A DNA stretch of 64,000 bases from NCBI RefSeq assembly GCF_003368325.1, contig NZ_CP031466.1, positions 2,108,001 through 2,172,000 of the forward strand, written 5' to 3'. Positions 45,048-58,295 of the stretch are shown here, piece after piece; position 1 is the stretch's first letter; each line of letters begins with the position of its first letter. Both the position numbers and the translations under genes were made by a program. This DNA comes from Paraburkholderia caffeinilytica (lineage in GTDB: Bacteria > Pseudomonadota > Gammaproteobacteria > Burkholderiales > Burkholderiaceae). The notes under the pieces are model-generated. The model was given only the letters and a program-made list of their open reading frames with translations. It had not been told where the DNA came from and searched no databases.

Positions 45048-46340
45048 ATGAGCGTCCCGCAACAAGCCTTCCTACGCGACGCGATGCGTCGCCTGAACAT
45101 GACCCGCGACACGTTCGCGAGCCGCATCGGCGTATCGCGCCGCGCGCTCGACACATGGCTCTTGCCGGACGATTCGCAGGAATCGCGCGCCATGCCGGAG
45201 ATCGTGGAGCGTTTCGTGTCGGAGATCGTGGTGCATGGCGAGCCGGGTGAAACCTATACGCAAAGCGTAGACTCGCAATCGCTGGCGAGCCAGATGCTGT
45301 TCGAAGGCAAGCCGCAACTGCTGTCGGTCGATCAGTTCTCGCGCGACTCGGTCGAGGCGCTGTTCCGCGTCGCCGACATCATGCAGCCGATCGCGCGGCG
45401 CCGGAAAATCTCCCGCGTGCTCGAGGGCGCGGTGCTCGGCAATCTGTTCTTCGAGGCCAGCACCCGCACCCGCGTGAGCTTCGGCGCGGCCTTCTGCCGG
45501 CTCGGCGGTTCGGTGTGCGACACCACCGGCTTCACGTTTTCGTCGATGGCCAAGGGCGAGTCGATCTACGACACCAGCCGCGTGATGAGCGGTTATGTGG
45601 ATGCGCTGGTGATCCGCCATCCGGAGCAAGGCTCGGTGGCCGAATTCGCACGCGCCACCAACGTGCCGGTGATCAACGGCGGCGACGGCCCGGGCGAGCA
45701 TCCGAGCCAGGCGCTGCTCGATCTGTACACGATCCAGCGCGAGTTCTCGCGTCTCGGCAAGATCGTCGACGGGGCGCATATCGCACTGGTCGGCGACCTG
45801 AAATATGGCCGCACGGTGCATTCGCTGGTCAAGCTGCTGGCGCTGTATCGCGGCATCAAGTTCACGCTGATCTCGCCGCCCACGCTCGAAATGCCGAGCT
45901 ACATCGTCGAGCAGATTTCGCGCAACGATCACGTGATCGAACAGACCCACGATCTGCCCGCGGGGCTGCGCGGCGCCGACGTGGTGTACGCCACGCGCAT
46001 CCAGAAAGAGCGCTTCACCGACGAATCCTTCGAAGGCTATACGCCGGATTTCCAGATCAACCAGGCGCTGATGGACAGCGTGTGCGGCCCCGACACGCTG
46101 ATCATGCACCCGCTGCCGCGCGACAGCCGGCCGGGCGCGAACGATCTGAGCGTCGACCTGAACCATGACTCGCGTCTTGCGATTTTCCGGCAGACCGACA
46201 ACGGCATTCCGGTACGGATGGCGATTTTCGCCGTGCTGCTGGGTGTGGAAAAGCTGGTTCAGCATTCGATGCGCGACGCCGCGTGGCGCCCGCCGGCATA
46301 TCTCGGTCCGGACGATGCGGTGTTTCACGGCATCGATTGA
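45048..46340 (+). CDS. pyrB: Aspartate carbamoyltransferase with N-terminal HTH-like domain
   Basis: A 430-residue protein, about 120 residues longer than ordinary PyrB. Residues 1-60 look like a small helix-turn-helix (LNMTRDTFASRIGVSRRALDTWLLP). From about 75 it is a full ATCase: carbamoyl-phosphate motif STRTRVSF at 138-145, GDGPGEHPSQALLDLYT at about 212-228, and HPLPRDSRP near the C-terminus. It would make carbamoyl-aspartate in pyrimidine synthesis, and the HTH may give it DNA binding or an oligomer contact. Its last codons recur as fragments at about 48.06 and 58.2 kb. Confidence 0.85.
   Translation: MSVPQQAFLRDAMRRLNMTRDTFASRIGVSRRALDTWLLPDDSQESRAMPEIVERFVSEIVVHGEPGETYTQSVDSQSLASQMLFEGKPQLLSVDQFSRDSVEALFRVADIMQPIARRRKISRVLEGAVLGNLFFEASTRTRVSFGAAFCRLGGSVCDTTGFTFSSMAKGESIYDTSRVMSGYVDALVIRHPEQGSVAEFARATNVPVINGGDGPGEHPSQALLDLYTIQREFSRLGKIVDGAHIALVGDLKYGRTVHSLVKLLALYRGIKFTLISPPTLEMPSYIVEQISRNDHVIEQTHDLPAGLRGADVVYATRIQKERFTDESFEGYTPDFQINQALMDSVCGPDTLIMHPLPRDSRPGANDLSVDLNHDSRLAIFRQTDNGIPVRMAIFAVLLGVEKLVQHSMRDAAWRPPAYLGPDDAVFHGID
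46309..46336 (+). repeat. Direct repeat copy 1 (3' end of ATCase gene)
   Basis: These 28 bases, encoding the end of the ATCase (DDAVFHGI), are identical to 48053-48080. A diverged third copy lies at 58194-58217. All three are followed within 60 bases by a hairpin of the GGCCTTGC type. Confidence 0.9.
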
Positions 46341-48052: not shown

Positions 48053-48083
48053 CGGACGATGCGGTGTTTCACGGCATCGACTG
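48053..48083 (+). pseudogene. ATCase 3'-end fragment, direct repeat copy 2
   Basis: Bases 48053-48080 are identical to the end of the ATCase gene. Read in frame they encode SDDAVFHGID and a stop, although no gene leads into them. They lie 13 bases after the permease stop and 43 bases before a perfect terminator of the same stem family. Confidence 0.9.
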
Positions 48084-48436
48084 AACGATTGAACGACTGA
48101 ACGACCAATTACGATTTGCCGGTGCAAAGCGGCCTTGCTGAAAACCAGCAAGGCCGCTTTTTTTTTGCCGTCACTCGAACGCCCGTCACGGGCGCTTCGT
48201 CACCCCGTCATCCGTGACTTCCGCTGGATTGTCCTGAGCGCGCGAGACACGCAAAGTGGTATCGCCGTCGAACGCATCCGGGCACGCTGCCCCGTTCCGG
48301 AGAGCGCGTCGTTCTTCGCGCACGTCGGCCCTTTTCCACAACAGGAAAAACATCATGTCCTTGCGACGCTTCCTCACTCGAACCTGCCGCGCCGCACGCG
48401 CGGCAATCGGCCACCGCAACGAACCGGGAGGCTGAA
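48084..48436. other. Gap after terminator, upstream of the second cargo module
   Basis: It contains the terminator at 48126-48166 and then about 270 bases without a supported gene. A promoter for the 48437 gene is expected but no clear -35/-10 pair was identified. Confidence 0.5.
48126..48166 (+). terminator. Strong intrinsic terminator
   Basis: A 15-bp perfect stem (left arm AAAGCGGCCTTGCTG) with a 5-base loop, followed by a run of nine T. It ends the permease transcript. Confidence 0.95.
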
Positions 48437-49555
48437 ATGGGCACCGACCATTTTGCCAACCGCTTCCGGCTGCATGCCGCAAGGGACAATGCCCTCCCTG
48501 ACGGCGCATCGCCCGGCGCACTGCTGGCCCAATTGCGCGACGAATGCGAGGCGATGGCGCGCTACGCGTTGCATCACGGCCTGCCGGTCGCGCCTGAAAC
48601 CATCGCGTTACTGAGCGCGCTGATCGACGGCACCGCGCCTGACAACCCGCCTCCCGGCGCGGCTGGCGACGCACCTCGCCACACCAACACCGCCGGCGAC
48701 GCGCCTCGCCACGCAAACACCGCCGGCGACGCGCCTCGTTACGCCGGCACCTCGCAGCACTCGCTTGCATCGATCCACCGGAAACTGGCCGCGCTCATCG
48801 CGCCGGCCACTCCGCAAGCCGTCACGCTGCTCGACGCGCAACACCGTCTCGGCCGTCCATTCGCGTGGCTCGGTCCAGTGCCGCTGATCAGGTTGCTGAC
48901 GGTCGCGGCGATTGCATTTCTGATCGCCGTGGTCGCAACCGGCCTGTCGCCCGACGTCTCCGCGGACAACGTCGAGCGCGGGTTCCTCGATTCGCACGGC
49001 ACGCAGCTGTTGTGGAATGCGCTGTTCCTGCTCTTTTGCGCGGGACTCGGCGCATCGTTCGCGACGCTGTTTCAGGCACATCGTTACATCGCCGCCTCGA
49101 CGTACGACCCGAAGTACGACGCATCTTACGGTGCGCGCCTGATTCTCGGACTCATTGCCGGGTTAATCCTCGTCGAGATGCTGCCGTCGCACCTCTTCGA
49201 TCAGGGCAGCATGCACAGCTTCGGCAAGCCCGCTCTCGCCATGCTCGGCGGTTTCTCGGCGACTGCCGTACACCGCTTGCTGCAACGGCTCGTCGACACG
49301 CTCGACACCCTCGTGCGCGGCGATCGCTCGTCCGACGCGGACGCCGCACAGCAGACGCGCCGCGCCCAGGCCGCGAGCGAACGCACGCAATGGCAGAGCG
49401 AAATCGCCGCGAGCCTGCTCGATCTCCAGCAGTCGCTCGATCATCCGGATGCCGGCGACACCGCGCGCCGGCGCCTCGCGGATCTCACCCGCGCGATGCT
49501 GGCAGGCGAGCCGGTCCGGCTATCCGCTACCTCTATTCCAAACGACCCGGAGTAA
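48437..49555 (+). CDS. Uncharacterised membrane protein with internal 10-aa repeats
   Basis: A 372-residue protein I do not recognise. A soluble N-terminus of about 150 residues holds three copies of a GDAPRHxNTA-like repeat at about 77-105. It is followed by about four membrane helices (LLTVAAIAFLIAVVATGL, LLWNALFLLFCAGLGASFATLF, LILGLIAGLILVEML, LAMLGGFSATAVHRLLQRL) and a charged, coiled-coil-like C-terminus. GGGAGG precedes ATG 48437. The next gene starts 4 bases after its stop, so the two form an operon. It is the first gene of the 48.4-58.2 kb cargo module. Confidence 0.7.
   Translation: MGTDHFANRFRLHAARDNALPDGASPGALLAQLRDECEAMARYALHHGLPVAPETIALLSALIDGTAPDNPPPGAAGDAPRHTNTAGDAPRHANTAGDAPRYAGTSQHSLASIHRKLAALIAPATPQAVTLLDAQHRLGRPFAWLGPVPLIRLLTVAAIAFLIAVVATGLSPDVSADNVERGFLDSHGTQLLWNALFLLFCAGLGASFATLFQAHRYIAASTYDPKYDASYGARLILGLIAGLILVEMLPSHLFDQGSMHSFGKPALAMLGGFSATAVHRLLQRLVDTLDTLVRGDRSSDADAAQQTRRAQAASERTQWQSEIAASLLDLQQSLDHPDAGDTARRRLADLTRAMLAGEPVRLSATSIPNDPE
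48665..48751 (+). repeat. 30-bp minisatellite within coding sequence
   Basis: Three in-frame copies (two full, one of 27 bases) begin GGCGACGC and encode GDAPRHTNTA, GDAPRHANTA and GDAPRYAGT. Confidence 0.85.
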
Positions 49556-49559
49556 CACG

Positions 49560-50363
49560 ATGCTCTTCCTCTACAACATGCCGGCCGCCTTGATGGGTGC
49601 GTTGATTGTCGGCGCGACGCTCGCCGCGGCCTTGAGCGGCTATCTGCTGTTTCGCCGCTGCTTTCCGGTTCATCTCAATGCCGAACAGCGCGGCATGACC
49701 GTGGCGATGATGTCCGCGGTGACGACCATCAATTCGCTGCTGGTCGCGTTCGCCGCCATCACGGTCTGGGGCACCTACGACGCAGCGGCCGGCACGGTCT
49801 CGTCCGAAGCCGCGTGCGCGACCGAACTCGCTCACGATCTCGCGTCGTTCGGCAAGCCGGATGCGCTCATCGCGAGGCGCGAGCTGATCGTCTATATCGA
49901 GCATGTGGTTCGGGACGAATGGCCGCAAATGCAGCAGTACGCGCGCGCGGACGCCGGGACCCAGGCCGCGTTCGACCGGATGTTCGCGACCACCAACCGG
50001 ATCGTGCCGTCGGACGATCGCGAGCGGGCACTCCTGACCGAAGTGCTTGCCCGCGTGAATGAAATGACCAAGCTTAGGGAGCATCGGCTGCAGGCACTCG
50101 ATGTCGCCATGCCGGTGACGTTGTGGGGTGTCATGCTGATCGCGAGCGCGCTCTCGCTGGTGCTGCTATACGTGTTGCCCGTGACCCGTTTTCATCTTGG
50201 ACTCGTGACCATCTGGGCAACCACGCTCGGTCTTGCGTTCTTTTTCGTGCTGGCCGTCGACCGGCCGTTCGCCGGCGAAGTCAGCGTGAGTCCGGCGCCC
50301 ATGCAGCACGCCATCGACACCCTCGCCGCTGAAGACGCGGAACATCAGGCTGCGCCGGCCTAG
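49560..50363 (+). CDS. DUF4239/bestrophin-like membrane protein
   Basis: A 267-residue protein with two N-terminal helices (about 6-28 and 45-70), a polar central domain of about 110 residues, and two C-terminal helices (about 185-230). LLVAFAAITVWGTYDAAAGTVSSEA followed by ATELAHDL is the pattern of DUF4239 proteins, whose function is not established. The start at 49560 has GGAG overlapping the end of the previous gene. It ends 50 bases from the convergent LuxR-type gene, with a bidirectional stem-loop between. Confidence 0.7.
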   Translation: MLFLYNMPAALMGALIVGATLAAALSGYLLFRRCFPVHLNAEQRGMTVAMMSAVTTINSLLVAFAAITVWGTYDAAAGTVSSEAACATELAHDLASFGKPDALIARRELIVYIEHVVRDEWPQMQQYARADAGTQAAFDRMFATTNRIVPSDDRERALLTEVLARVNEMTKLREHRLQALDVAMPVTLWGVMLIASALSLVLLYVLPVTRFHLGLVTIWATTLGLAFFFVLAVDRPFAGEVSVSPAPMQHAIDTLAAEDAEHQAAPA

Positions 50364-50368
50364 CTCGT

Positions 50369-50405
50369 CTTACATACGGCCACCTCCCCCCGGGCCGGAT
50401 GTAAG
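50369..50405. terminator. Bidirectional stem-loop between convergent genes
   Basis: Arms CTTACATACGGCC and GGCCGGATGTAAG (one mismatch) with an 11-base loop fill most of the 50-base gap between the DUF4239 gene and the regulator. Confidence 0.7.
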
Positions 50406-50413
50406 CGCGCCGT

Positions 50414-51091
50414 TTATTCATGCGTTGCACATAAGAGCGGCTGACCTTGCACGTCTTCAGGTGTCACATGACGCGCGAGCCACAGCGCCGCTTCCGTGCG
50501 GTTCGAGACCCCGATCTGCCGGAAGAGCGCGTACAGGTGATTCTTGATGGTCCCCTCCGCGACGTTGAGCACCCGGCAGATCTGCTTGTTCGACTTCCCT
50601 TCGGCCAGCAGACGCAACACCTGGCGCTGCCGTGGCGTCAGGCGCTCGAATGCCCGATCGCCGGACTGCGCTTGTGCCGGCCCCAACTCGGCACCAAGGC
50701 CGTAAGTCGGCGGAACATAGATTGCGCCCGACGCGACACGGCAGAGCGCATCGGCGAATTCGTCCGCGCTCGCATGACGCTCGACGATGCCCGAGGCGCC
50801 CGCCATCAGCGCATCGGCAATCGCCTGACGACCCACCGTGCGCACCACGAATAGCCATGGCACCGTCCCCAGGACATCCTGCAGCACCTTCGGCCAGCCT
50901 ATTCGCGCGGCACGCTCGTCCCATTCGAGCGTGACCGCGCCGACCGTTCCCGGCGGCAGGTCTTCGCGGATGCGGTAGATGTCTTCGGGACGCTGGGCCG
51001 ACCACACCTGGCAATTGCTGTCGCGTTTCCACAAGACATCGGCTACCCCCGCCACGAACAACGGCGGGCTATCGATCATCAGAACGTTCAT
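50414..51091 (-). CDS. NarL/LuxR-type regulator with degenerate receiver domain
   Basis: A 225-residue protein shaped like a NarL response regulator. The C-terminal helix-turn-helix is complete (LTPRQRQVLRLLAEGKSNKQICRVLNVAEGTIKNHLYALFRQIGVSNRTEA). The receiver-like half starts VLMIDSPPLFVAGV but keeps only one of the two acidic residues, and the phosphoacceptor strand reads GAVTLEWDERA instead of a VVLLD motif. Phosphorylation is therefore unlikely, and control may be by ligand, partner or expression level. No kinase is adjacent. It is divergent from the DUF2589 operon, and the shared 274-base region carries a perfect palindrome. Confidence 0.85.
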   Translation of the reverse strand: MNVLMIDSPPLFVAGVADVLWKRDSNCQVWSAQRPEDIYRIREDLPPGTVGAVTLEWDERAARIGWPKVLQDVLGTVPWLFVVRTVGRQAIADALMAGASGIVERHASADEFADALCRVASGAIYVPPTYGLGAELGPAQAQSGDRAFERLTPRQRQVLRLLAEGKSNKQICRVLNVAEGTIKNHLYALFRQIGVSNRTEAALWLARHVTPEDVQGQPLLCATHE

Positions 51092-51262
51092 TTACGCGTA
51101 TCCCCTCGGTAGAGAGACGCTCGGGTTCACGTTATTTGCGCCTCTTCGGCTCGCTTTTACCGCTCTTTTGAAAATGACGCACTAGTCCCGTTGATCCATG
51201 ACAAACGTTCTAATGCAAAAGGCACTCCATTTCTTTCAGAATTAATATGTCCACGACCCCTG

Positions 51263-51278
51263 CCGTCATGCATGACGG
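51263..51278. promoter_or_regulatory. Perfect 16-bp palindrome, likely operator
   Basis: CCGTCATGCATGACGG lies between the divergent regulator and DUF2589 genes, 172 bases from the former start and 88 from the latter. The size and symmetry suit a LuxR-type dimer. Confidence 0.55.
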
Positions 51279-51365
51279 ATGGCCTCTCCACAGATCCCTC
51301 CAATTTATCTAATTTGAATAAAGGCAGTGTATTCGCACTGTCACAAATTCACCATGGAGGTTTGT

Positions 51366-52034
51366 ATGGATGCCAATTTTATCGGCTCGGTCATTAATGC
51401 CTTACCAATGGACCAAATGATCGCGGGGCCATTGAAAGCAATGATTTCCGCGCAAACCCAGGCAGCGAAAAGCTATGCCGATTTTCTGATGCAGGTGTGC
51501 ATTCAGAACGGCAAGGCAGTCGCCGTGCAGTTCGACTACGACGAAACGCTGGTCGACGAGAGCGGCGTATCGAAAGGCATGGTTCAGAAGACCATGCGCA
51601 TCCCCCTGCTGGCCGCGATCGTTCATCCCATCATCGCCATCGAAGAAGGCACGATCGACTTCGAGATGGAAATCACTCAGTCGGAGAAGTCGGCGGAGTC
51701 CACGGAGGCGGGCGGGGAATTCCAGGCCAAGTTCGGCTGGGGCCCGGTCAGCGTAAGCATTTCGGGACGCGTCTCGCACAAGTCGGAGCAAACGCGCAGC
51801 ACCGACACGCGAGCCAAGTATTCGATCCACACGCAGATCAAGCGGCAGCCCCCGCCGGAAGCGCTGATGCGCGTCATCGACTTCCTGACGGACGCCGCCA
51901 CCAAACCGGTCGTGACCGAAGACAAGGCGAAAGACGTCAAGCCGCTGCCGGCCACGCCGACGGACGGCAAGCTCGCCGGCGAGACCACGCAACCGAGCAC
52001 CCAGGCGAGCGGCCAGCAGCCTGTCCATCAATAA
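51366..52034 (+). CDS. DUF2589-family protein
   Basis: A 222-residue protein of the DUF2589 type, whose function is unknown. The family start MDQMIAGPLKAMISAQTQAAKSYADFL (about 15-41) is followed by a beta-rich core (MRIPLLAAIVHPIIAIEEGTIDFEMEI) and a C-terminal segment PPEALMRVIDFLTDAATKPV. The C-terminus is low-complexity (Lys, Thr, Gln). No signal peptide or membrane helix is present, so it is cytoplasmic unless exported otherwise. A very strong ribosome site (GGAGG at 51356-51360) suggests high expression. It is the first gene of an operon of at least three genes and probably about ten. Confidence 0.8.
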   Translation: MDANFIGSVINALPMDQMIAGPLKAMISAQTQAAKSYADFLMQVCIQNGKAVAVQFDYDETLVDESGVSKGMVQKTMRIPLLAAIVHPIIAIEEGTIDFEMEITQSEKSAESTEAGGEFQAKFGWGPVSVSISGRVSHKSEQTRSTDTRAKYSIHTQIKRQPPPEALMRVIDFLTDAATKPVVTEDKAKDVKPLPATPTDGKLAGETTQPSTQASGQQPVHQ

Positions 52035-52065
52035 ACGCGACGGCCATGGACGGCGGACGGACACC

Positions 52066-52878
52066 ATGTTCAACCTCTTCAAGCGACGCCGCGGCATGCA
52101 GGCCTCACGCGGCACGCCGGCGGACGGCGTGCCGCACGACAACGCCACGCAGCGCACGGCCCCGCAGGGCGCAATCGATAGCAAGCCGGCCGCCGCGCTC
52201 GAAGCGGGCGAGCCGCCGGTTACCGCGCAAGCAGGGCCGCCTGCCTCAGCCCCGGCCTCGGCGGCGGCTGGCGATGCTCGCATGGCGACCGGCAGCGGCG
52301 AGGACGTGCCGCCCGGCGCTCCACCCTCCGGTGGAGCGCCGCCGCCGAACGCCGGCAATCCGCCGCCGCGCGGCCTCGCGCTCGACGACATCACGCGTGG
52401 CATGCAGCACGCGGCAGCCGCCGCGAACCAGTTGCTCTCGCTTCAGTACACCACCGTGCTCGATCAGTTCTTCGACCAGAACGAGGACGGCCTGCTCACG
52501 CCGCGCGCCGTCGAGGTGGCGCTCGACGCGGAGCACACGATGCCGGTGCCGCTGGTCGCGCTGGCGACGCCGCGCGGACTGGCGCTCGACAGGATGGTCG
52601 TGCACCTCACGGTGCGCGCGGACTTCACCGAAACGCTGCCGGCAGGCGGATTGGTGGGCGGCGATCAGCGCGGCCGTTTTTTCGTGACGCTCGCGCCGCC
52701 GTCGGCACGCCCGAACGCCGAGGGTCAGCAAGCTCAGCGCGACAGCCAGCACATCGACATCGAAATGCAGTTTGCGGCGCTCGACCCGCCCGAAGCGATC
52801 ATGCGCGTGATCGACGAATACACCCACCGCCTCGTGCCGCGCGCACGCCACGACGACGAGGAGAAACGCCATGCCTGA
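52066..52878 (+). CDS. Second DUF2589-like protein with long disordered N-terminus
   Basis: A 270-residue protein. Residues 1-105 are Ala/Pro/Gly-rich and probably disordered. From about 106 (LDDITRGMQHAAAAANQLLSLQYTTVLDQFF) it follows the same plan as the preceding protein: helical start, beta core (HTMPVPLVALATPRGLALDRMVVHLTVRADF), then PPEAIMRVIDEYTHRLVP. It is therefore a diverged paralogue. The middle contains DQNEDGLLTPRAVEVAL, which resembles an EF-hand-like loop, though this may be chance. It overlaps the endolysin gene by 8 bases. Confidence 0.7.
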   Translation: MFNLFKRRRGMQASRGTPADGVPHDNATQRTAPQGAIDSKPAAALEAGEPPVTAQAGPPASAPASAAAGDARMATGSGEDVPPGAPPSGGAPPPNAGNPPPRGLALDDITRGMQHAAAAANQLLSLQYTTVLDQFFDQNEDGLLTPRAVEVALDAEHTMPVPLVALATPRGLALDRMVVHLTVRADFTETLPAGGLVGGDQRGRFFVTLAPPSARPNAEGQQAQRDSQHIDIEMQFAALDPPEAIMRVIDEYTHRLVPRARHDDEEKRHA

Positions 52879-53317
52879 GCAACCCGCATCCACCGGCGCA
52901 CAAGGTATCGACCTGATCAAACAGTTCGAGGGCTTGCGCCTGACCCGCTATCTCGACGCTGTCGGCAAACCGACGATCGGCTATGGGCATCTGATTCTGC
53001 CGCACGAACGCTTCGATCGCCCGCTCACGGAGTCCGAGGCGCTGGCGCTCCTGAAGCGCGACTTGCGCAGCGCCGAACTCGCGCTGCGCAAGCTGATACG
53101 CGTCGCGATCACGCAGCAGCAATTCGATGCCTTGATGTCGTTCGTCTTCAACCTTGGCGCGGGGCGGCTGCATTCTTCGACGCTGCTGCGCTATCTGAAC
53201 GCAGGTGCAACCCGTCAAGCCGCCGACCAGTTCCTCGTCTGGAACAAAGCGGGCGGCAAGCCACTCGCGGGACTGACGCGCCGCCGCCAGGCCGAACGAA
53301 AACTGTTTATTTCCTAG
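52871..53317 (+). CDS. T4-type lysozyme/endolysin (GH24)
   Basis: A 148-residue GH24 muramidase. The catalytic region reads LIKQFEGLRLTRYLDAVGKPTIGYGH, with Glu 20 as the acid and the following Asp/Thr of the E-8aa-D/C-5aa-T triad approximately kept. QQFDALMSFVFNLGAG and a terminal RRQAERKLF are also typical. It cleaves peptidoglycan glycan strands. It has no signal peptide, and no holin, spanin or other phage gene is nearby. The start overlaps the end of the DUF2589-like gene, so it is translated as part of that operon rather than being a phage remnant on its own. Confidence 0.88.
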   Translation: MPEQPASTGAQGIDLIKQFEGLRLTRYLDAVGKPTIGYGHLILPHERFDRPLTESEALALLKRDLRSAELALRKLIRVAITQQQFDALMSFVFNLGAGRLHSSTLLRYLNAGATRQAADQFLVWNKAGGKPLAGLTRRRQAERKLFIS

Positions 53318-53339
53318 TGTCCTGACAGGAGACTTTCCG

Positions 53340-53846
53340 ATGATTTCAAACCATCACGACCGTCCGGGTCGCGGACTCAGGCCGCGTGCCGTCTGCGCAA
53401 TCGCAATCGGAGCCGCCGCCTTCTATTGCGCCACTGCGGCGCACGCGCAACAGTCTTCGCCCGCGCTTACCTGCGAGGTTGAAGTCGGGCGAATCAACCA
53501 GGCGCTGCAGTCCGCGCACCAGCCTGCGCTATGCGAGCGCTGCGGACAGCGGCTTGCCCAAACGCTCGACAGTCTTTACCGGATCGGCGTGCTGCCCACC
53601 TTCTACACGTCCGCGGACAGCGCCGGCTGGGACGACCCGCAGCGCCGGCCCGCGATGATGAGCGGCCACAGTCTCGCCGGCATTCCGGACGGCGCCGATC
53701 TGCTGGCCGACATCGACAGCGGCTTTGGGCCGCGCGGCATCCACCGGCTGCGCTACACGCCGTCGAACCAGCCTGTCGCCATCACCACGGCCGACCGCAG
53801 CGTCTCCATCCCGCTGGCGCCATGCACGCCCGGCGGCGCGCCCTGA
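53340..53846 (+). CDS. Small secreted protein, unknown
   Basis: A 168-residue protein with a Sec signal peptide (VCAIAIGAAAFYCATAAHA, cleavage near residue 36). The mature part has four cysteines close together (LTCEVEVG, PALCERCGQRL) and one near the C-terminus (LAPCTPGG), which could form disulfides. No family was recognised. GGAGA precedes ATG 53340, and it follows the endolysin by 22 bases, so it is probably cotranscribed. An accessory to the endolysin in the periplasm is conceivable but unproven. Confidence 0.6.
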   Translation: MISNHHDRPGRGLRPRAVCAIAIGAAAFYCATAAHAQQSSPALTCEVEVGRINQALQSAHQPALCERCGQRLAQTLDSLYRIGVLPTFYTSADSAGWDDPQRRPAMMSGHSLAGIPDGADLLADIDSGFGPRGIHRLRYTPSNQPVAITTADRSVSIPLAPCTPGGAP

Positions 53847-54033
53847 CACGCGCGGCGGGTATGGCGGGAACGTCGGCATGGGCCATCCTTCCTATGTCGC
53901 CGTACCGGCCTTCCGCCCTATTCATGCGAGCGCACCGCGCATCTACTCTGCAAGGGCAGTGAGACACAAGCAACGAATGCCCGACACGTAGACCCGAACG
54001 CTTAACGATCACACCCCCAACAGGAGCAATGGC

Positions 54034-55152
54034 ATGAATTCGGCAGCCGCCCATAACGATTCGTTATCCAAACTTAATGTTCAACCATGCGGATTCCAGC
54101 GCCATGGCTTGCGCACGTGGTTCAGCGCGTTTGTGCTGATCGCCGCGACCGTCTCGTGCGCAAGCGCCGCGGAGCTCGCACCGCTGCCCACGCTCGGAGC
54201 CGACCTGCAGCACACGTCTGTCTCCGGACTATCGTCCGGCGCGTTCATGGCGGCCCAGTTCGACGTTGCCTGGTCGAGCCGTCTGATCGGCGCGGGCATC
54301 GTGGCCGGCGGGGCGTTCGATTGCGCAGGCGAGTCGGCCTTCGTGGCACCCGCCGTGGCGGCGGTGACGCTGTGCATGAAGCCCGCAGGCGCCGCGCCGG
54401 CGGCGGAAGGCGCGTGGCGGGCCGCGCAACGCATCGCCAGGGCCGGCCAGATCGACGACCCGGCCAACCTTCGCGAGCAGCGCATTTACCTCTTCAGCGG
54501 CGCGAAGGATAGCGTCGTCGCGACCCGTGTGGTCGATCAGGCCAGGCGCTTCTATGAACTGGCTCAAGTACCGGAATCCAGCATCGAGTATCAACGCCAT
54601 CCCGACGCCGGCCATGCACTGATCACGAACCGCCCGGAAGACTCCCCCTGCGACGCGAACCAGAGCCCGTATATCAACAACTGTGGCTTCGAGCAATCGC
54701 ACGAAATCCTGCGCTGGATCTACGCGAGACCCAATGCGCCGTTGAATGCGCCCACGGCGCAGGCAAGCGGCCAGTTGCGCAGCTTCGATCAGCGCGAGTT
54801 CGATCCCGATCGCCGCGCGTCGCTCGCCGACGCAGCGTACGTGTATGTGCCGGCGGATTGCCTGCATGCAGCGTGCGCGGTGCATGTCGCGTTTCACGGC
54901 TGCGTGCAGAACGCCGATGCGGTCGGCCAACGATTCATGCGCGGTGCCGGCTACAACGAGATCGCCGACACCAACCGCCTGATCGTGCTCTACCCGCAGG
55001 CTGCCAAATCGGCCGTCAATCCGCTCGGTTGCTGGGACTTCTGGGGCTACACGAGTCCGGACCCGGACCATCCCGACTTCAACACTCGCGAGGCGCCGCA
55101 AATGGCCGCGGTGATGAAGATGATCGAGCGCCTGGGCGGCGCACGTCAGTGA
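54034..55152 (+). CDS. PHA depolymerase-like secreted esterase (type 2 catalytic domain)
   Basis: A 372-residue alpha/beta hydrolase with an N-terminal signal region (FSAFVLIAATVSCASAAEL). The lipase-type nucleophile is in the GLSSGAFMAAQF box at about 68-79, Asp in LFSGAKDSVVATR and His in HPDAGHALITN. The C-terminal ACAVHVAFHGCVQNADAVGQRF and NPLGCWDFWGYTSPDP are typical of extracellular short-chain-length polyhydroxyalkanoate depolymerases with the type 2 order. It would hydrolyse PHB released outside the cell. AGGAG precedes ATG 54034. A phasin-like gene follows after 63 bases. Confidence 0.8.
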   Translation: MNSAAAHNDSLSKLNVQPCGFQRHGLRTWFSAFVLIAATVSCASAAELAPLPTLGADLQHTSVSGLSSGAFMAAQFDVAWSSRLIGAGIVAGGAFDCAGESAFVAPAVAAVTLCMKPAGAAPAAEGAWRAAQRIARAGQIDDPANLREQRIYLFSGAKDSVVATRVVDQARRFYELAQVPESSIEYQRHPDAGHALITNRPEDSPCDANQSPYINNCGFEQSHEILRWIYARPNAPLNAPTAQASGQLRSFDQREFDPDRRASLADAAYVYVPADCLHAACAVHVAFHGCVQNADAVGQRFMRGAGYNEIADTNRLIVLYPQAAKSAVNPLGCWDFWGYTSPDPDHPDFNTREAPQMAAVMKMIERLGGARQ

Positions 55153-55215
55153 ATGCGGCGATTGCCAACGCCCATCGAGCCCGCACCCGAAACCCGAACC
55201 GATTAAGGACCCGTC

Positions 55216-55758
55216 ATGCTCTCGACCCTCATCACGCAGTGGGAAAACGCCAATCTCGCCGCCTTCCAGTTATTCAGCAAACTCGTTGCGCAGTCGGCCA
55301 ACCCGGCGGGACTGCCGGGCGTCACAACCGATGTCGGCGCGTGGCGTGCCTTCGTACGCACCGCCTTGCAGAGCGGTCAGCAGTACACGAGCGCGGCGCA
55401 ATCGGCATTCGATGCCGGCTGGCGCGAGCAGCGCGACCGTCTCGCGCTCTCAGGCGCTGCCGCCGCGATCAAGGAGCTGGCCGCGATCAATGCCGACCTC
55501 GCGACGCGCATCGCCCAAGGTCACGTGCAGCACACCGGTGCGCTCACCGATGCGGCCGCCCAGTATCTCGACGACCTGTCCCGCAGCCGCAACGCCACGG
55601 ATGCCGCGATGGCGTTCGGCCGGTTCGCCAACGACGTGCAGGCGCAGAGCCGGGCGCAAACGCTGCATACGTCGTCGATCGCCGGCAGCGTCTCTCCCGC
55701 CATCACGCAGTGGGTCGAGAAGCATCTCTCGGATGACAGCGCGGAGCAGGCGAAATGA
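55216..55758 (+). CDS. Phasin-like helical protein
   Basis: A 180-residue protein predicted almost entirely helical, Ala- and Gln-rich, without signal peptide or membrane helix. The segment WENANLAAFQLFSKLVAQSANP followed by amphipathic helices with heptad spacing resembles phasins, which coat PHA granules, but no diagnostic motif is present. Its place after a PHA depolymerase-like gene is the main support. Its stop overlaps the ATG of the first tandem paralogue (ATGA), so it is translationally coupled to that unknown family. Confidence 0.5.
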   Translation: MLSTLITQWENANLAAFQLFSKLVAQSANPAGLPGVTTDVGAWRAFVRTALQSGQQYTSAAQSAFDAGWREQRDRLALSGAAAAIKELAAINADLATRIAQGHVQHTGALTDAAAQYLDDLSRSRNATDAAMAFGRFANDVQAQSRAQTLHTSSIAGSVSPAITQWVEKHLSDDSAEQAK

Positions 55759-56387
55759 ACATCCATCTTCGGTTCGTCAACCGCTCGAATGACCGCGGCA
55801 ACAGCGAAGTCGTGCTGTTCCAGCGCAACGTGATTCCCGATTTCGACGAGCTAGCGATCGCATGGAAGGTGATTCGCTTCTGCGGCCGGGATGGCCTCCA
55901 TCCGTTCGTCTATTCGAGCGAGATCGAGATCGCGCTGGGCGACGAGCACGGCAACTACTCGCCGCGCATGAGCGCGCAACACGGCGAGCGTTTCGTCATC
56001 GGAACTCATCCGACCGGCCGCGCCCGGCTCGTCGCCGAACCGGCGCCGGCGAACGGCGCGGACGGCGGTCCGGACATCCAGGTCGTCAACCGGATGCCGC
56101 GCGGCGCGGTCAACGTCAACGCCTTCAGCGCGGGCAAGCTGATCGCCGCCAAGTGGGCCGTGGCGCCGGCCCAGAAGGCCGTTTTCCGCTTCACGCCGGT
56201 GCTGTGGATCGGCGTGGCGTCGCAGATCGAGGAAGGACGTGCGCTCAGTTCGGCCGTGCTGTCGAGCGACAACACGATGCTGCCCCTCGCCGGCATTGCC
56301 GCGGCCGACATCGTGATGACAGGCGGCGGCAGCGGCGCCGATGCACAGCCCTTCGCTTTCGCGCTCGAAAACGTCATGCATCTCTAG
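55755..56387 (+). CDS. Unknown family, tandem paralogue 1
   Basis: A 210-residue protein I cannot assign. It shares with the next two genes the N-terminal IHLRFVNRSNDRGNSEVVLFQRNV, then DFDELAIAWKVIRFCG, LWIGVASQIEEG and a DIVMTGGG near the C-terminus. The sequence is beta-rich, with no signal peptide, cysteine cluster or catalytic motif, which suggests a structural or binding protein. It is the most diverged of the three, with 5 extra residues. It is coupled to the phasin-like gene by an ATGA overlap. Confidence 0.7.
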   Translation: MNIHLRFVNRSNDRGNSEVVLFQRNVIPDFDELAIAWKVIRFCGRDGLHPFVYSSEIEIALGDEHGNYSPRMSAQHGERFVIGTHPTGRARLVAEPAPANGADGGPDIQVVNRMPRGAVNVNAFSAGKLIAAKWAVAPAQKAVFRFTPVLWIGVASQIEEGRALSSAVLSSDNTMLPLAGIAAADIVMTGGGSGADAQPFAFALENVMHL

Positions 56388-56520
56388 CGTCTCGCGTCGA
56401 CACGACGCCGGCATGCGGCGTCTCACCTCTTCTTTCGTTTGACGGCCCGTCCAACCGGCAGGCCGGTGGCAAGGTGCGCGGCAAACCGATTGCCGTATTT
56501 CAACCTCAAGGAGCAGGCAA

Positions 56521-57138
56521 GTGGATATTCAACTGAACTTCGTCAACCGTTCGAACGACGCTAACAACTCGAACATCGTGATCTTCCAGAAAAACGTCGC
56601 GACGGATTTCGACGAACTGGCGATCGCGTGGAAAGTGATTCGCAACTGCGGCCAGGGCGACAATCATCCGTTCAAATTTCCGATGACGATGAGCGTGAGC
56701 GCGAGCGACAGCTACGGCAACTACATGCCGCAGCAAACCGCCAGCAACGGACAGGTCTTCCAGATTGTCCGCTCGACGTCGGGCGACGTGCTCACGCTCG
56801 GAACGGAGCCGGGCAACAGCTCGGAAGTCCAGGTCCGCAACGATCTGCCGAACGGCGCCGCGAACGCGACCATTTACAAGGACGGAAGCCCGCTTGCGAC
56901 CAAGACATCGATCGCGCCGGGGCAAAAGGCCGTGTTCCAGTTCAAGCCGACATTGTGGATCGGTGTCGCGTCGCAGATCGAACAAGGTGCGTTGCTGAAT
57001 TCGGCGGTCATCTCCGACATCAACACGGAGCTTTCGCTGCTCGGCATTGCCAGCGCCGACATCGTGATGACGGGCGGCGGTCCCGGCCCGCGCTCGCTGC
57101 CGTTCACCTTCCGGCTCGAACACGTCGTGATGGCGTAA
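56521..57138 (+). CDS. Unknown family, tandem paralogue 2
   Basis: A 205-residue beta-rich protein starting at GTG 56521, with AGGAG at 56508-56512. It aligns with paralogue 3 over its whole length with no obvious gap: N-terminal NFVNRSNDANNSNIVIFQKNV, then FKPTLWIGVASQIEQG, SAVISDINTELSLLGIA and DIVMTGGGPG. The family is unknown to me. It has no export signal. Conserved asparagine-rich N-termini and a shared hydrophobic core would fit proteins that assemble with each other, which is inference. Confidence 0.72.
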   Translation: MDIQLNFVNRSNDANNSNIVIFQKNVATDFDELAIAWKVIRNCGQGDNHPFKFPMTMSVSASDSYGNYMPQQTASNGQVFQIVRSTSGDVLTLGTEPGNSSEVQVRNDLPNGAANATIYKDGSPLATKTSIAPGQKAVFQFKPTLWIGVASQIEQGALLNSAVISDINTELSLLGIASADIVMTGGGPGPRSLPFTFRLEHVVMA

Positions 57139-57219
57139 CGACGGACTTAGCGGACACGCGTCCGGCGTCGGAGGATTCGTCGTTCGACGCCGCTTCACTC
57201 CACCAGGAAAAGGTCAGTC

Positions 57220-57837
57220 ATGGACATCAAACTCAACTTCATCAACCTCTCCAACGACGTCAACAACAGTCAGATCGTGATCTTTCAGAAAAACGTCTCG
57301 ACGGATTTCGACGAGCTCGCGGTCGCATGGAAGGTCATCAGCAACTGCGGGCGCGGCGACAATCACCCGTTCGTCTTTCCGCTGCAAACCACCGTCACCG
57401 CCAGCGACGCGGACGGCAACTACATGCCGCAGAAAGTCGCGCAGAACGGCCAGATGTTCAGCGTGAGCCGCGCCGCATCCGGCAATGTGCTCGCGCTCGC
57501 CGGCGCATCGTCGAGTTCGCGCGAGATCCAGTTGCGCAACGATCTGCGCACGGGCGCCATCAGCGCCGGCGTGTTCAAGGACAACCGGCTGCTCGCGAAG
57601 AAAACCGGCATCGTGCCGGGACAGAAGGCCGTGTTCGAGTTCAAGCCGACGCTCTGGATCGGCACCGCCTCGGAGGTCGAGCAAGGCAAGGTGATGAATT
57701 CCGCCGTGATCTCCGACATCAACACCGAACTGTCGCTGCTCGGCATCGCGCGCTGCGACGTCGTGATGACGGGCGGCGGCGGCGGGACCACGGCTGTGCC
57801 GTATCAGTTCAAGCTGGCGAACATCGTCATGGGCTAA
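57220..57837 (+). CDS. Unknown family, tandem paralogue 3
   Basis: A 205-residue protein, the same length as paralogue 2 and clearly its duplicate: NFINLSNDVNNSQIVIFQKNV, then DFDELAVAWKVISNCGRGDNHPF, FKPTLWIGTASEVEQG, SAVISDINTELSLLGIARCDVVMTGGG. The middle region (about 85-125) is where the two differ most, as would be expected of an exposed or ligand-contacting face. AAAGG lies upstream of ATG 57220. A gap of 81 bases separates it from paralogue 2. Confidence 0.72.
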   Translation: MDIKLNFINLSNDVNNSQIVIFQKNVSTDFDELAVAWKVISNCGRGDNHPFVFPLQTTVTASDADGNYMPQKVAQNGQMFSVSRAASGNVLALAGASSSSREIQLRNDLRTGAISAGVFKDNRLLAKKTGIVPGQKAVFEFKPTLWIGTASEVEQGKVMNSAVISDINTELSLLGIARCDVVMTGGGGGTTAVPYQFKLANIVMG

Positions 57838-57896
57838 CCGGACGAATCGGCGGCAATTTCACTATTGGCAACCGCAATCTTCAAAGGAGATGCATC

Positions 57897-58190
57897 ATGC
57901 CGCTTCACGAAATCGATACTGAAAAACCAACAAAGGCAAAGAATTCGTTGGTCAGCGCGTACCATAAAGAGAAACAGAAAGGCCTCGGCGTCTGGATCCG
58001 CAAAGGACTTCTGAAGGGCAGCGACAACCCGGATCTTGCGTTGCTTGGCGGCCACCTCGTCGTTCGTCTTTACAGCATCGAAGACGATGAGAAGGCAAAC
58101 GAAGTGTCGGGCACCACCCACTGGATCTTCAAATCGTCGGCTGGTCATTACTACGGTGTCGTCGTCAGCGGACCGCTCGGCGAGAGCTAG
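57897..58190 (+). CDS. Small 97-aa protein at the end of the module
   Basis: A short protein with a very good ribosome site (AAAGGAG, 7 bases before ATG 57897). The N-terminal half is basic (TEKPTKAKNSLVSAYHKEKQKGLGVWIRKG), and the C-terminal half looks like a small beta fold (HLVVRLYSIEDDE, THWIFKSSAGHYYGVVVSG). No family was recognised. It follows paralogue 3 by 59 bases and is the last gene before direct repeat copy 3 and its terminator, so it closes the cargo module. Confidence 0.6.
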   Translation: MPLHEIDTEKPTKAKNSLVSAYHKEKQKGLGVWIRKGLLKGSDNPDLALLGGHLVVRLYSIEDDEKANEVSGTTHWIFKSSAGHYYGVVVSGPLGES

Positions 58191-58193
58191 ATC

Positions 58194-58217
58194 GATGCGG
58201 TCATTCACGGCATCGAT
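58194..58217 (+). pseudogene. ATCase 3'-end fragment, direct repeat copy 3
   Basis: The sequence matches the ATCase gene end with two substitutions in the first 23 bases and reads IDAVIHGID-like in frame. It begins 3 bases after the stop of the 97-aa gene and is followed by the third hairpin of the same stem family. Confidence 0.82.
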
Positions 58218-58256
58218 CGATCGCCGATCGATTGCGGCTGACTCATGCAATCAGGC

Positions 58257-58295
58257 AAAAGCGGCCTTGCTGTGAATCAGCAAGGCCGCTTTTTT
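58257..58295. terminator. Strong intrinsic terminator
   Basis: A 16-bp perfect stem (left arm AAAAGCGGCCTTGCTG) with a 5-base loop and T-run on the plus strand, and A-run on the other side. It lies between convergent genes and can serve both. The stem is nearly identical to that at 48126-48166. Confidence 0.95.

Follow-up and report, generated by a model that had tools for sequence, protein, structure and literature searches.

Introduction

Release cassettes composed of a holin, an endolysin and a spanin are grouped as the type 10 secretion system (T10SS), with which we compare here a module of thirteen genes (A to M) at positions 48,437 to 58,190 of a 64,000-nucleotide (nt) stretch from Paraburkholderia caffeinilytica (contig NZ_CP031466.1, positions 2,108,001 to 2,172,000), hereafter called the window. 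Like a T10SS, the module encodes a lysozyme without a transmembrane (TM)-like segment, which lies beside a regulator gene and potentially released products; unlike in a T10SS, no small holin or spanin was recognised in it, their place being taken by two DUF2589 proteins, and the family of hydrolase accompanying this pair varies by lineage. To our knowledge, no function is known for DUF2589. Both proteins of the module exceed the Pfam cut-off for DUF2589 and are paired, as in all 33 DUF2589-bearing genomes of the family sample, whereas Bacteroidota often have a single copy. In one passage of a report on Archaeoglobus fulgidus, a DUF2589-related gene region (AF0414-AF0417) is described as up-regulated with lactate (PMC3949148).

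The module also encodes a polyhydroxyalkanoate (PHA) depolymerase that passes the model of type 2 enzymes and keeps their motifs; unlike these enzymes, however, it lies within an operon of lysozyme and DUF2589 genes. Two IMG/VR records resemble P4-like satellite islands in having the GH24/DUF2589 set with an integrase (L200) or primase, Psu-like and integrase genes (L201), whereas the module of the window has no integrase or replication gene.

We propose that the module acts, under regulation and without a holin, to give a cytoplasmic wall hydrolase the means of opening the cell, and that the PHA-related and beta-sandwich proteins are its passengers; we assign a probability of 0.38 to this reading. 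The association of the genes is well supported, whereas the roles in lysis, release and PHA are inferred.

A core of regulator, DUF2589 pair and wall hydrolase

Gene C (50414..51091, minus strand) encodes a NarL/LuxR-type regulator and is divergent from D. Its GerE helix-turn-helix scored 66.2 bits, no PF00072 receiver match was obtained in the Pfam scan, and by eye the receiver pocket has a single acidic residue with glutamate at the expected position of the acceptor aspartate. A putative control region (51092..51365) between C and D contains blocks common to 15 module loci, judged by eye and with no statistic, and by the same judgement the six loci of genus g64 described below differ. The DUF2589 proteins D (51366..52034, plus strand) and E (52066..52878, plus strand, with a proline-rich N-terminal extension) scored 94.7 and 37.1 bits against PF11655, respectively, the cut-off being 23. 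Gene F (52871..53317, plus strand) encodes a GH24 lysozyme with 146.2 bits against PF00959 (cut-off 22.3), and the catalytic motif of GH24 enzymes, E-x8-D-x5-T, is kept in 29 of 29 sequences. Gene G (53340..53846, plus strand) encodes a cysteine-containing protein with one N-terminal TM-like segment, for which the one spanin test made on the module gave no PHROGs match at an E-value of 0.1. Hydropathy revealed no TM-like segment in C, D, E, F, I or J to M.

The co-occurrence of these genes was analyzed in 299 genomes drawn evenly from the family, the genome of the window included. The profile of the three paralogous proteins J, K and L matched 16 genomes with three matches in every one, while DUF2589 was detected in 33 genomes with two matches in every one. 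All 16 paralogue genomes also carry DUF2589, with about 1.8 expected, so that the independent occurrence named beforehand in the initial annotation as speaking against a single unit was not seen within the family. However, the paralogues are not a fixed partner of DUF2589, as 17 of the 33 DUF2589 genomes do not have them, and outside the family the two go separate ways, with DUF2589 in just three of the 27 genomes behind the distant paralogue loci L022-L048. In another genus (g64), twelve genomes encode the DUF2589 pair but no paralogues, and all six g64 loci fetched contain C-D-E-F-G with no further module gene in about 20 kb. Because g64 harbors these five genes alone, we define the core as the regulator, the DUF2589 pair, the GH24 lysozyme and the secreted protein. 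In 27 of the 28 genomes (16 with the module and 12 of g64), a GH24 domain and E share a contig and are no more than 300 nt apart, and in the remaining one, G282, GH24 and E both lie at contig ends.

Different wall hydrolases beside DUF2589

The DUF2589 pair repeatedly adjoins unrelated wall hydrolases, namely GH24, GH19, Amidase_3 and N-acetylmuramidase, and this replacement of the hydrolase is the strongest functional clue. Of the family's remaining five DUF2589 genomes, two (G018 and G028) contain GH19 beside the pair. In the sample of Pseudomonadota, DUF2589 was found in 9 of 398 genomes, the window's own among them and eight with two matches; here GH19 lies within 600 nt of DUF2589 in G064 and G559, as it does in G018 and G028, GH24 lies about 1 kb away in G719, and Amidase_3 is the neighbor in G438. 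A plasmid of the Deltaproteobacteria harbors an N-acetylmuramidase (PF11860) about 2 kb downstream of DUF2589, and one Vibrio plasmid an annotated peptidoglycan-binding protein, without a Pfam match, about 1.2 kb off on the opposite strand; no such wall-related gene was seen near DUF2589 on a second Vibrio plasmid. GH19 is rare, with 14 matches in the 19 genomes searched, four of them within 3 kb of DUF2589 against roughly 0.01 expected, though this is not a clean test, since the 19 genomes were picked after GH19 had already been seen by DUF2589 in G028 and G559. In three similar IMG/VR records (L200-L202, not aligned to each other), GH24 is present on both sides of the DUF2589 pair. The order in L200 is GH24, DUF2589, DUF2589, GH24 and a G-like gene, between an ADH gene and an integrase, and this record also contains two small membrane proteins and a secreted RNase A-like protein (PF18431). 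Other repeated neighbors of DUF2589 are a family of 90 amino acids (aa; eight loci), a family of 180 aa (four loci) and regulators (11 of 28 loci), the latter being a common gene class.

Swapping of hydrolases is also typical of effectors, and the locus might therefore be an interbacterial weapon in which the swapped hydrolases, and perhaps H, are the effectors, DUF2589 their carrier or adaptor, and G a periplasmic immunity protein. The position of G, or of a G-like gene, directly after F or GH24 in the window, in all six g64 loci and in L200-L202 fits this, as does the RNase A-like protein of L200, whose domain is named from CdiA toxins. We nevertheless consider a weapon unlikely, because none of the 37 proteins scanned with Pfam was recognised as VgrG, PAAR, Hcp or another secretion component, and because 11 of the 23 F-bearing module loci (L009, L012, L013, L014, L015, L016, L017, L018, L123, L124 and L125) keep F without G, which therefore cannot be an obligatory immunity protein in those loci. 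Moreover, effectors diversify fast, whereas F is well conserved, with at least 64% identity across loci and a median ratio of nonsynonymous to synonymous substitution rates (dN/dS) of 0.205.

Proposed mechanism

A hydrolase without a signal needs help in reaching the wall, and the DUF2589 pair, not a recognisable holin, is common to the four hydrolase families; therefore, a holin-less device is proposed. In such a device, C would trigger expression of the operon, perhaps in only a fraction of the cells, and the DUF2589 pair would stand in for the holin, either opening the inner membrane or otherwise bringing the hydrolase to the wall. F would then cut the wall, and cell contents or a loaded payload would be let out. 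The lineage of the window would use the PHA depolymerase, the phasin-like protein and the three beta-sandwich paralogues as payload or helpers, such that granules set free could undergo digestion outside the cell, or the paralogues could be delivered. The second half of D is rich in serine and threonine (0.23 compared with 0.09) and shows beta alternation at residues 115-162 (p 0.003, the best of three stretches, uncorrected), a texture that may resemble what a membrane-inserting hairpin would show. In line with the absence of a holin, a crude screen of the 2.5 kb around the pair for small frames containing two TM-like segments flagged none in 22 of 28 other loci.

A number of observations weigh against such a device. 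The idea of a pore draws on the texture of the sequence, because the structure model of DUF2589, which predicts a long N-terminal helix for D, is poor (predicted local distance difference test score, pLDDT, of 52). G and H have N-terminal hydrophobic segments and therefore may cross the inner membrane without lysis. The membrane proteins A (48437..49555, plus strand, 372 aa, three TM-like segments) and B (about 49560..50363 with the start picked by eye, plus strand, four TM-like segments, bestrophin-like with 165.8 bits against PF14023, cut-off 32) might themselves supply the membrane pore and are the only module proteins with several TM-like segments, but both are missing from the core as found in g64. 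The screen for small TM frames does miss some proteins, because one L200 protein of 138 aa, multi-TM on visual inspection, went unflagged. In addition, genome-wide searches covering GH24 and GH19 found neither family by DUF2589 in G257, G287, G357, G729, G416, G516, G647, G100 and G107, and our own profiles detected no hydrolase partner in G1062, G1070 and G1036. Finally, DUF2589 was present in 14 of 247 Bacteroidota genomes, nine of which have a single match and no pair; in this phylum it occurs mostly with two other families (seven and six of the nine loci fetched, respectively), and no hydrolase was shown beside it among the part of the neighbors that was scanned.

A broader claim, which we regard as doubtful, is that DUF2589 pairs represent an undescribed class of holin-independent lysis or release systems scattered over the Pseudomonadota: the two proteins would form a beta-hairpin pore or translocator that serves any hydrolase plugged into it, and cargo specific to the lineage (PHA depolymerase, beta-sandwich proteins) would be released as a public good or as a weapon. 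The term undescribed is based on a full-text literature search for DUF2589 and on the absence of family annotations.

Two further arrangements of DUF2589 were observed. In L183, L186, L192 and L194-L198, mostly from Bacteroidota, DUF2589 is followed by two conserved proteins of about 230 and 190 aa, which constitutes a different type of DUF2589 operon. Three g52 genomes (L121, L122 and L135) display an unusual arrangement with long open frames and no GH24 or GH19 nearby.

Distribution and conservation of the module

The paralogues were searched in 84,980 named species genomes, a set that may omit the genome of the window itself and those very close to it, and 46 paralogue-encoding loci were obtained. 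Nineteen of these (L003-L021), from Paraburkholderia, Burkholderia and Trinickia, hold the module or the part of it that their contig reaches, in the same gene order as far as the contigs extend and with some losses. The view in the initial annotation that this stretch has no recognisable counterpart is thus wrong, while its proposal that the genes form one unit is borne out by this order across three genera and by the closeness of GH24 to E. Within a set of 98 relatives, the paralogue was found in four genomes including the window's own, which corresponds to 3 of the 57 other genomes of the genus. Genes A to L are a real, conserved and patchily distributed operon rather than a chance collection.

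Gene content was compared in 24 module loci (the window, L003-L021, L123-L125 and L131) and the six g64 loci; since L131 and L005 are the same contig, 23 module loci are distinct, and further near-identical pairs are possible. Eighteen module loci span C to F, and C, D, E and F are each present in all 18, A in 17 and B in 11. M was seen solely in the module copies at the window's site (the window and L003-L005). Both the module and its core are under purifying selection: the median dN/dS of twelve module genes ranges from 0.13 to 0.36 and is lowest in K (0.133, the minimum of the module), D (0.137) and L. Distances between loci correlate for the protein pairs compared (r from 0.57 to 0.98), though related loci would show some of that anyway. 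In a rough comparison, the flanks differ among the window's site, L006/L007, L008, the Burkholderia loci and the Trinickia loci; therefore, the module either moved or stayed while its surroundings changed.

The genome of the window comprises 8.3 Mb in three contigs, and a check of the open reading frames covering A to M found all of them open at the coordinates given here. From D to M the gaps measure 31, -8, 22, 187, 63, -4, 133, 81 and 59 nt, with overlaps between E and F (52871/52878) and between I and J (55755/55758). No Pfam family was found for A, G, J, K, L or M, the last of these being a 97-aa protein (57897..58190, plus strand). Positions and overlaps are those of the initial annotation, and its descriptions of a NarL-like regulator with a degenerate receiver, two DUF2589-type proteins, a PHA depolymerase-like esterase and three tandem paralogues all agree with the family scores and identities obtained; the phasin-like protein stays below the family cut-off.

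PHA-related genes

Gene H (54034..55152, plus strand) encodes a type 2 short-chain-length PHA depolymerase with a hydrophobic N-terminus containing one TM-like segment; it scored 377.2 bits against NF050059 of NCBIfam (cut-off 280), and the motifs GLSSG and HGC are present in all 21 H sequences. The phasin-like protein I (55216..55758, plus strand) scored 19.9 bits against PF09361 (Phasin_2), which is under the cut-off of 24.9.

A comparable set was observed in the genus of Massilia sp. Root335, where 7 of 62 genomes contain DUF2589. G1033 and G1054 carry on one strand a regulator, a PHA depolymerase (52% identity to H across 326 aa), a protein of 171 aa, a first DUF2589 gene, two small genes, a second DUF2589 gene and finally a GH19-like gene. 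The GH19-like gene, within 600 nt of DUF2589, was called with our own profile (297 and 301 bits) and not with Pfam. The regulator is related to the Trans_reg_C protein of G028, and no significant similarity was found between the 171-aa protein and I. As this set has another hydrolase and another class of regulator, it independently supports linking the PHA depolymerase to the core. In G1062, G1070 and G1036, the DUF2589 pair is without partners of the Massilia set within about 9 kb, and no H homologue was found near the pair in the six g64 loci fetched or in the GH19 loci of G018 and G028. The recurrence of the set in the Massilia group makes a PHA link more than a guess, though I stays under the phasin cut-off.

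The presence of H in 21 and of I in 22 of the 24 module loci, together with the recurrence of an H-like gene beside DUF2589 in the Massilia group, would also suit an intracellular PHA-granule or storage module, in which granules would be coated or remodelled by DUF2589 and the paralogues, H and I would work on PHA, and the lysozyme would do no more than loosen the wall so that H can be exported. This appears quite improbable to us, since H and I are both missing from L011 and L016, where E, F, J, K and L are retained, the g64, G018 and G028 loci have no nearby H homologue, and neither the score of I nor the comparison of I with the Massilia 171-aa protein supports a shared phasin.

The beta-sandwich paralogues

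Genes J (55755..56387), K (56521..57138) and L (57220..57837), all on the plus strand, encode the paralogues, with K and J being 65% and 46% identical to L, respectively. The structure model of L is a confident beta-sandwich (mean pLDDT 85.6), for which no confident structural relative was found. The family is large, with 1,795 proteins at an E-value of 0.001 or lower among the 7,993 candidates scored. The label 'aromatic ring-opening dioxygenase LigA', used by the sources in several cases, found no support in this analysis.

In 13 of the 27 distant paralogue loci, our own profiles detected relatives of a protein of 900-1000 aa and of a phage-tail-collar protein downstream, and Pfam confirmed the collar family (PF07484) for two proteins, those of L023 and L033. 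These neighbors hint at a structural role of the paralogues. In Root335 (G121), a contig with one DUF2589 gene carries the first part of the Massilia-type operon and, some 10 kb away, two paralogues. Downstream of these come the large protein, one resembling a collar protein, one of 488 aa and a GH19-like frame; that frame matched our own profile and was unreported by PF00182. The arrays, together with the Root335 one ending in a GH19-like frame, raise the question of whether the paralogues belong to an extracellular particle derived from a phage tail, whose release would be served by DUF2589 and F. We judge this decidedly improbable, because both the large protein and a collar protein are missing from the module, no phage relative of the paralogue was found, and 13 of the 27 distant loci show neither partner beside the paralogue and one more just the large one, although L046 is masked and some contigs end early.

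The loci with the array are L022, L023, L025, L027, L029, L030, L033, L034, L036, L038, L041, L044 and L045. Their protein of 900-1000 aa has no family assignment, and several also encode a 480-aa protein that is nitrilase-like by eye, or a glycosyltransferase (L033).

Insertion site and flanking repeats

The operon was probably inserted at the window's site and occurs also at others. Upstream lies a pyrB-like (aspartate/ornithine carbamoyltransferase-like) gene (45048-46340) with OTCace domains, and the flanking repeats are copies of its 3' end, which probably mark insertion at one site. The repeated tail of 32 nt starts at 46309, 48053 and 58189 with 0, 1 and 6 mismatches, respectively. Copy 1 (46309..46340, plus strand) is the 3' end of the gene itself. 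Copy 2 (48053..48163, plus strand), the left border of the module, combines a tail (48053-48084) with a terminator-like palindrome (48126-48160), and the decayed copy 3 (58189..58295, plus strand), with 6 of 32 positions mismatched and again a terminator-like palindrome, forms the right border. The repeat copies of the initial annotation are these pyrB-like tails together with the palindrome. The N-terminal extension of the pyrB-like protein looks helix-turn-helix-like, the HTH_3 match having an E-value of 0.17.

Three states were found behind the pyrB-like gene: empty, with a permease alone, and with the permease and the module. At empty sites, pyrB is followed by ADH (L139, L150-L155 and L162, of which L139 and L162 come from one genome), the permease is followed by ADH without the module in L137, L138, L140 and L141, and the order permease-module-ADH is seen in the window and L003-L005 (L142 is from the L005 genome). 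One tail copy is present at the empty sites where found and three in the window; the copy after the permease is kept in L141 and missing from L137, L138 and L140, while the right-hand copy occurs in the window, L003 and L004 (6 mismatches) and was not found in L005/L131. The 3' end of the pyrB-like gene is an insertion hot spot with two nested insertions, the permease and the module, and the repeats would fit successive insertions at a single site that recopied the gene end, the copies being imperfectly preserved. No integrase was detected by Pfam among A to M and the four neighbors scanned.

With such a hot spot, its tail repeats and its two nested insertions, unrelated genes could simply have piled up behind the pyrB-like gene. 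This is extremely improbable: the same gene order recurs in other genera and with other flanks, the protein distances between loci correlate, and every paralogue genome of the family sample has DUF2589, all of which contradicts chance accumulation.

Significance

Even without the mechanism, the linkage defines a core of regulator, DUF2589 pair and hydrolase that is distinct from its passengers. If the proposed reading is true, DUF2589 would gain a role in at least the Pseudomonadota, namely the opening of the wall without a holin, and regulated opening of the cell would be tied to PHA turnover in the Burkholderiaceae and the Massilia group.

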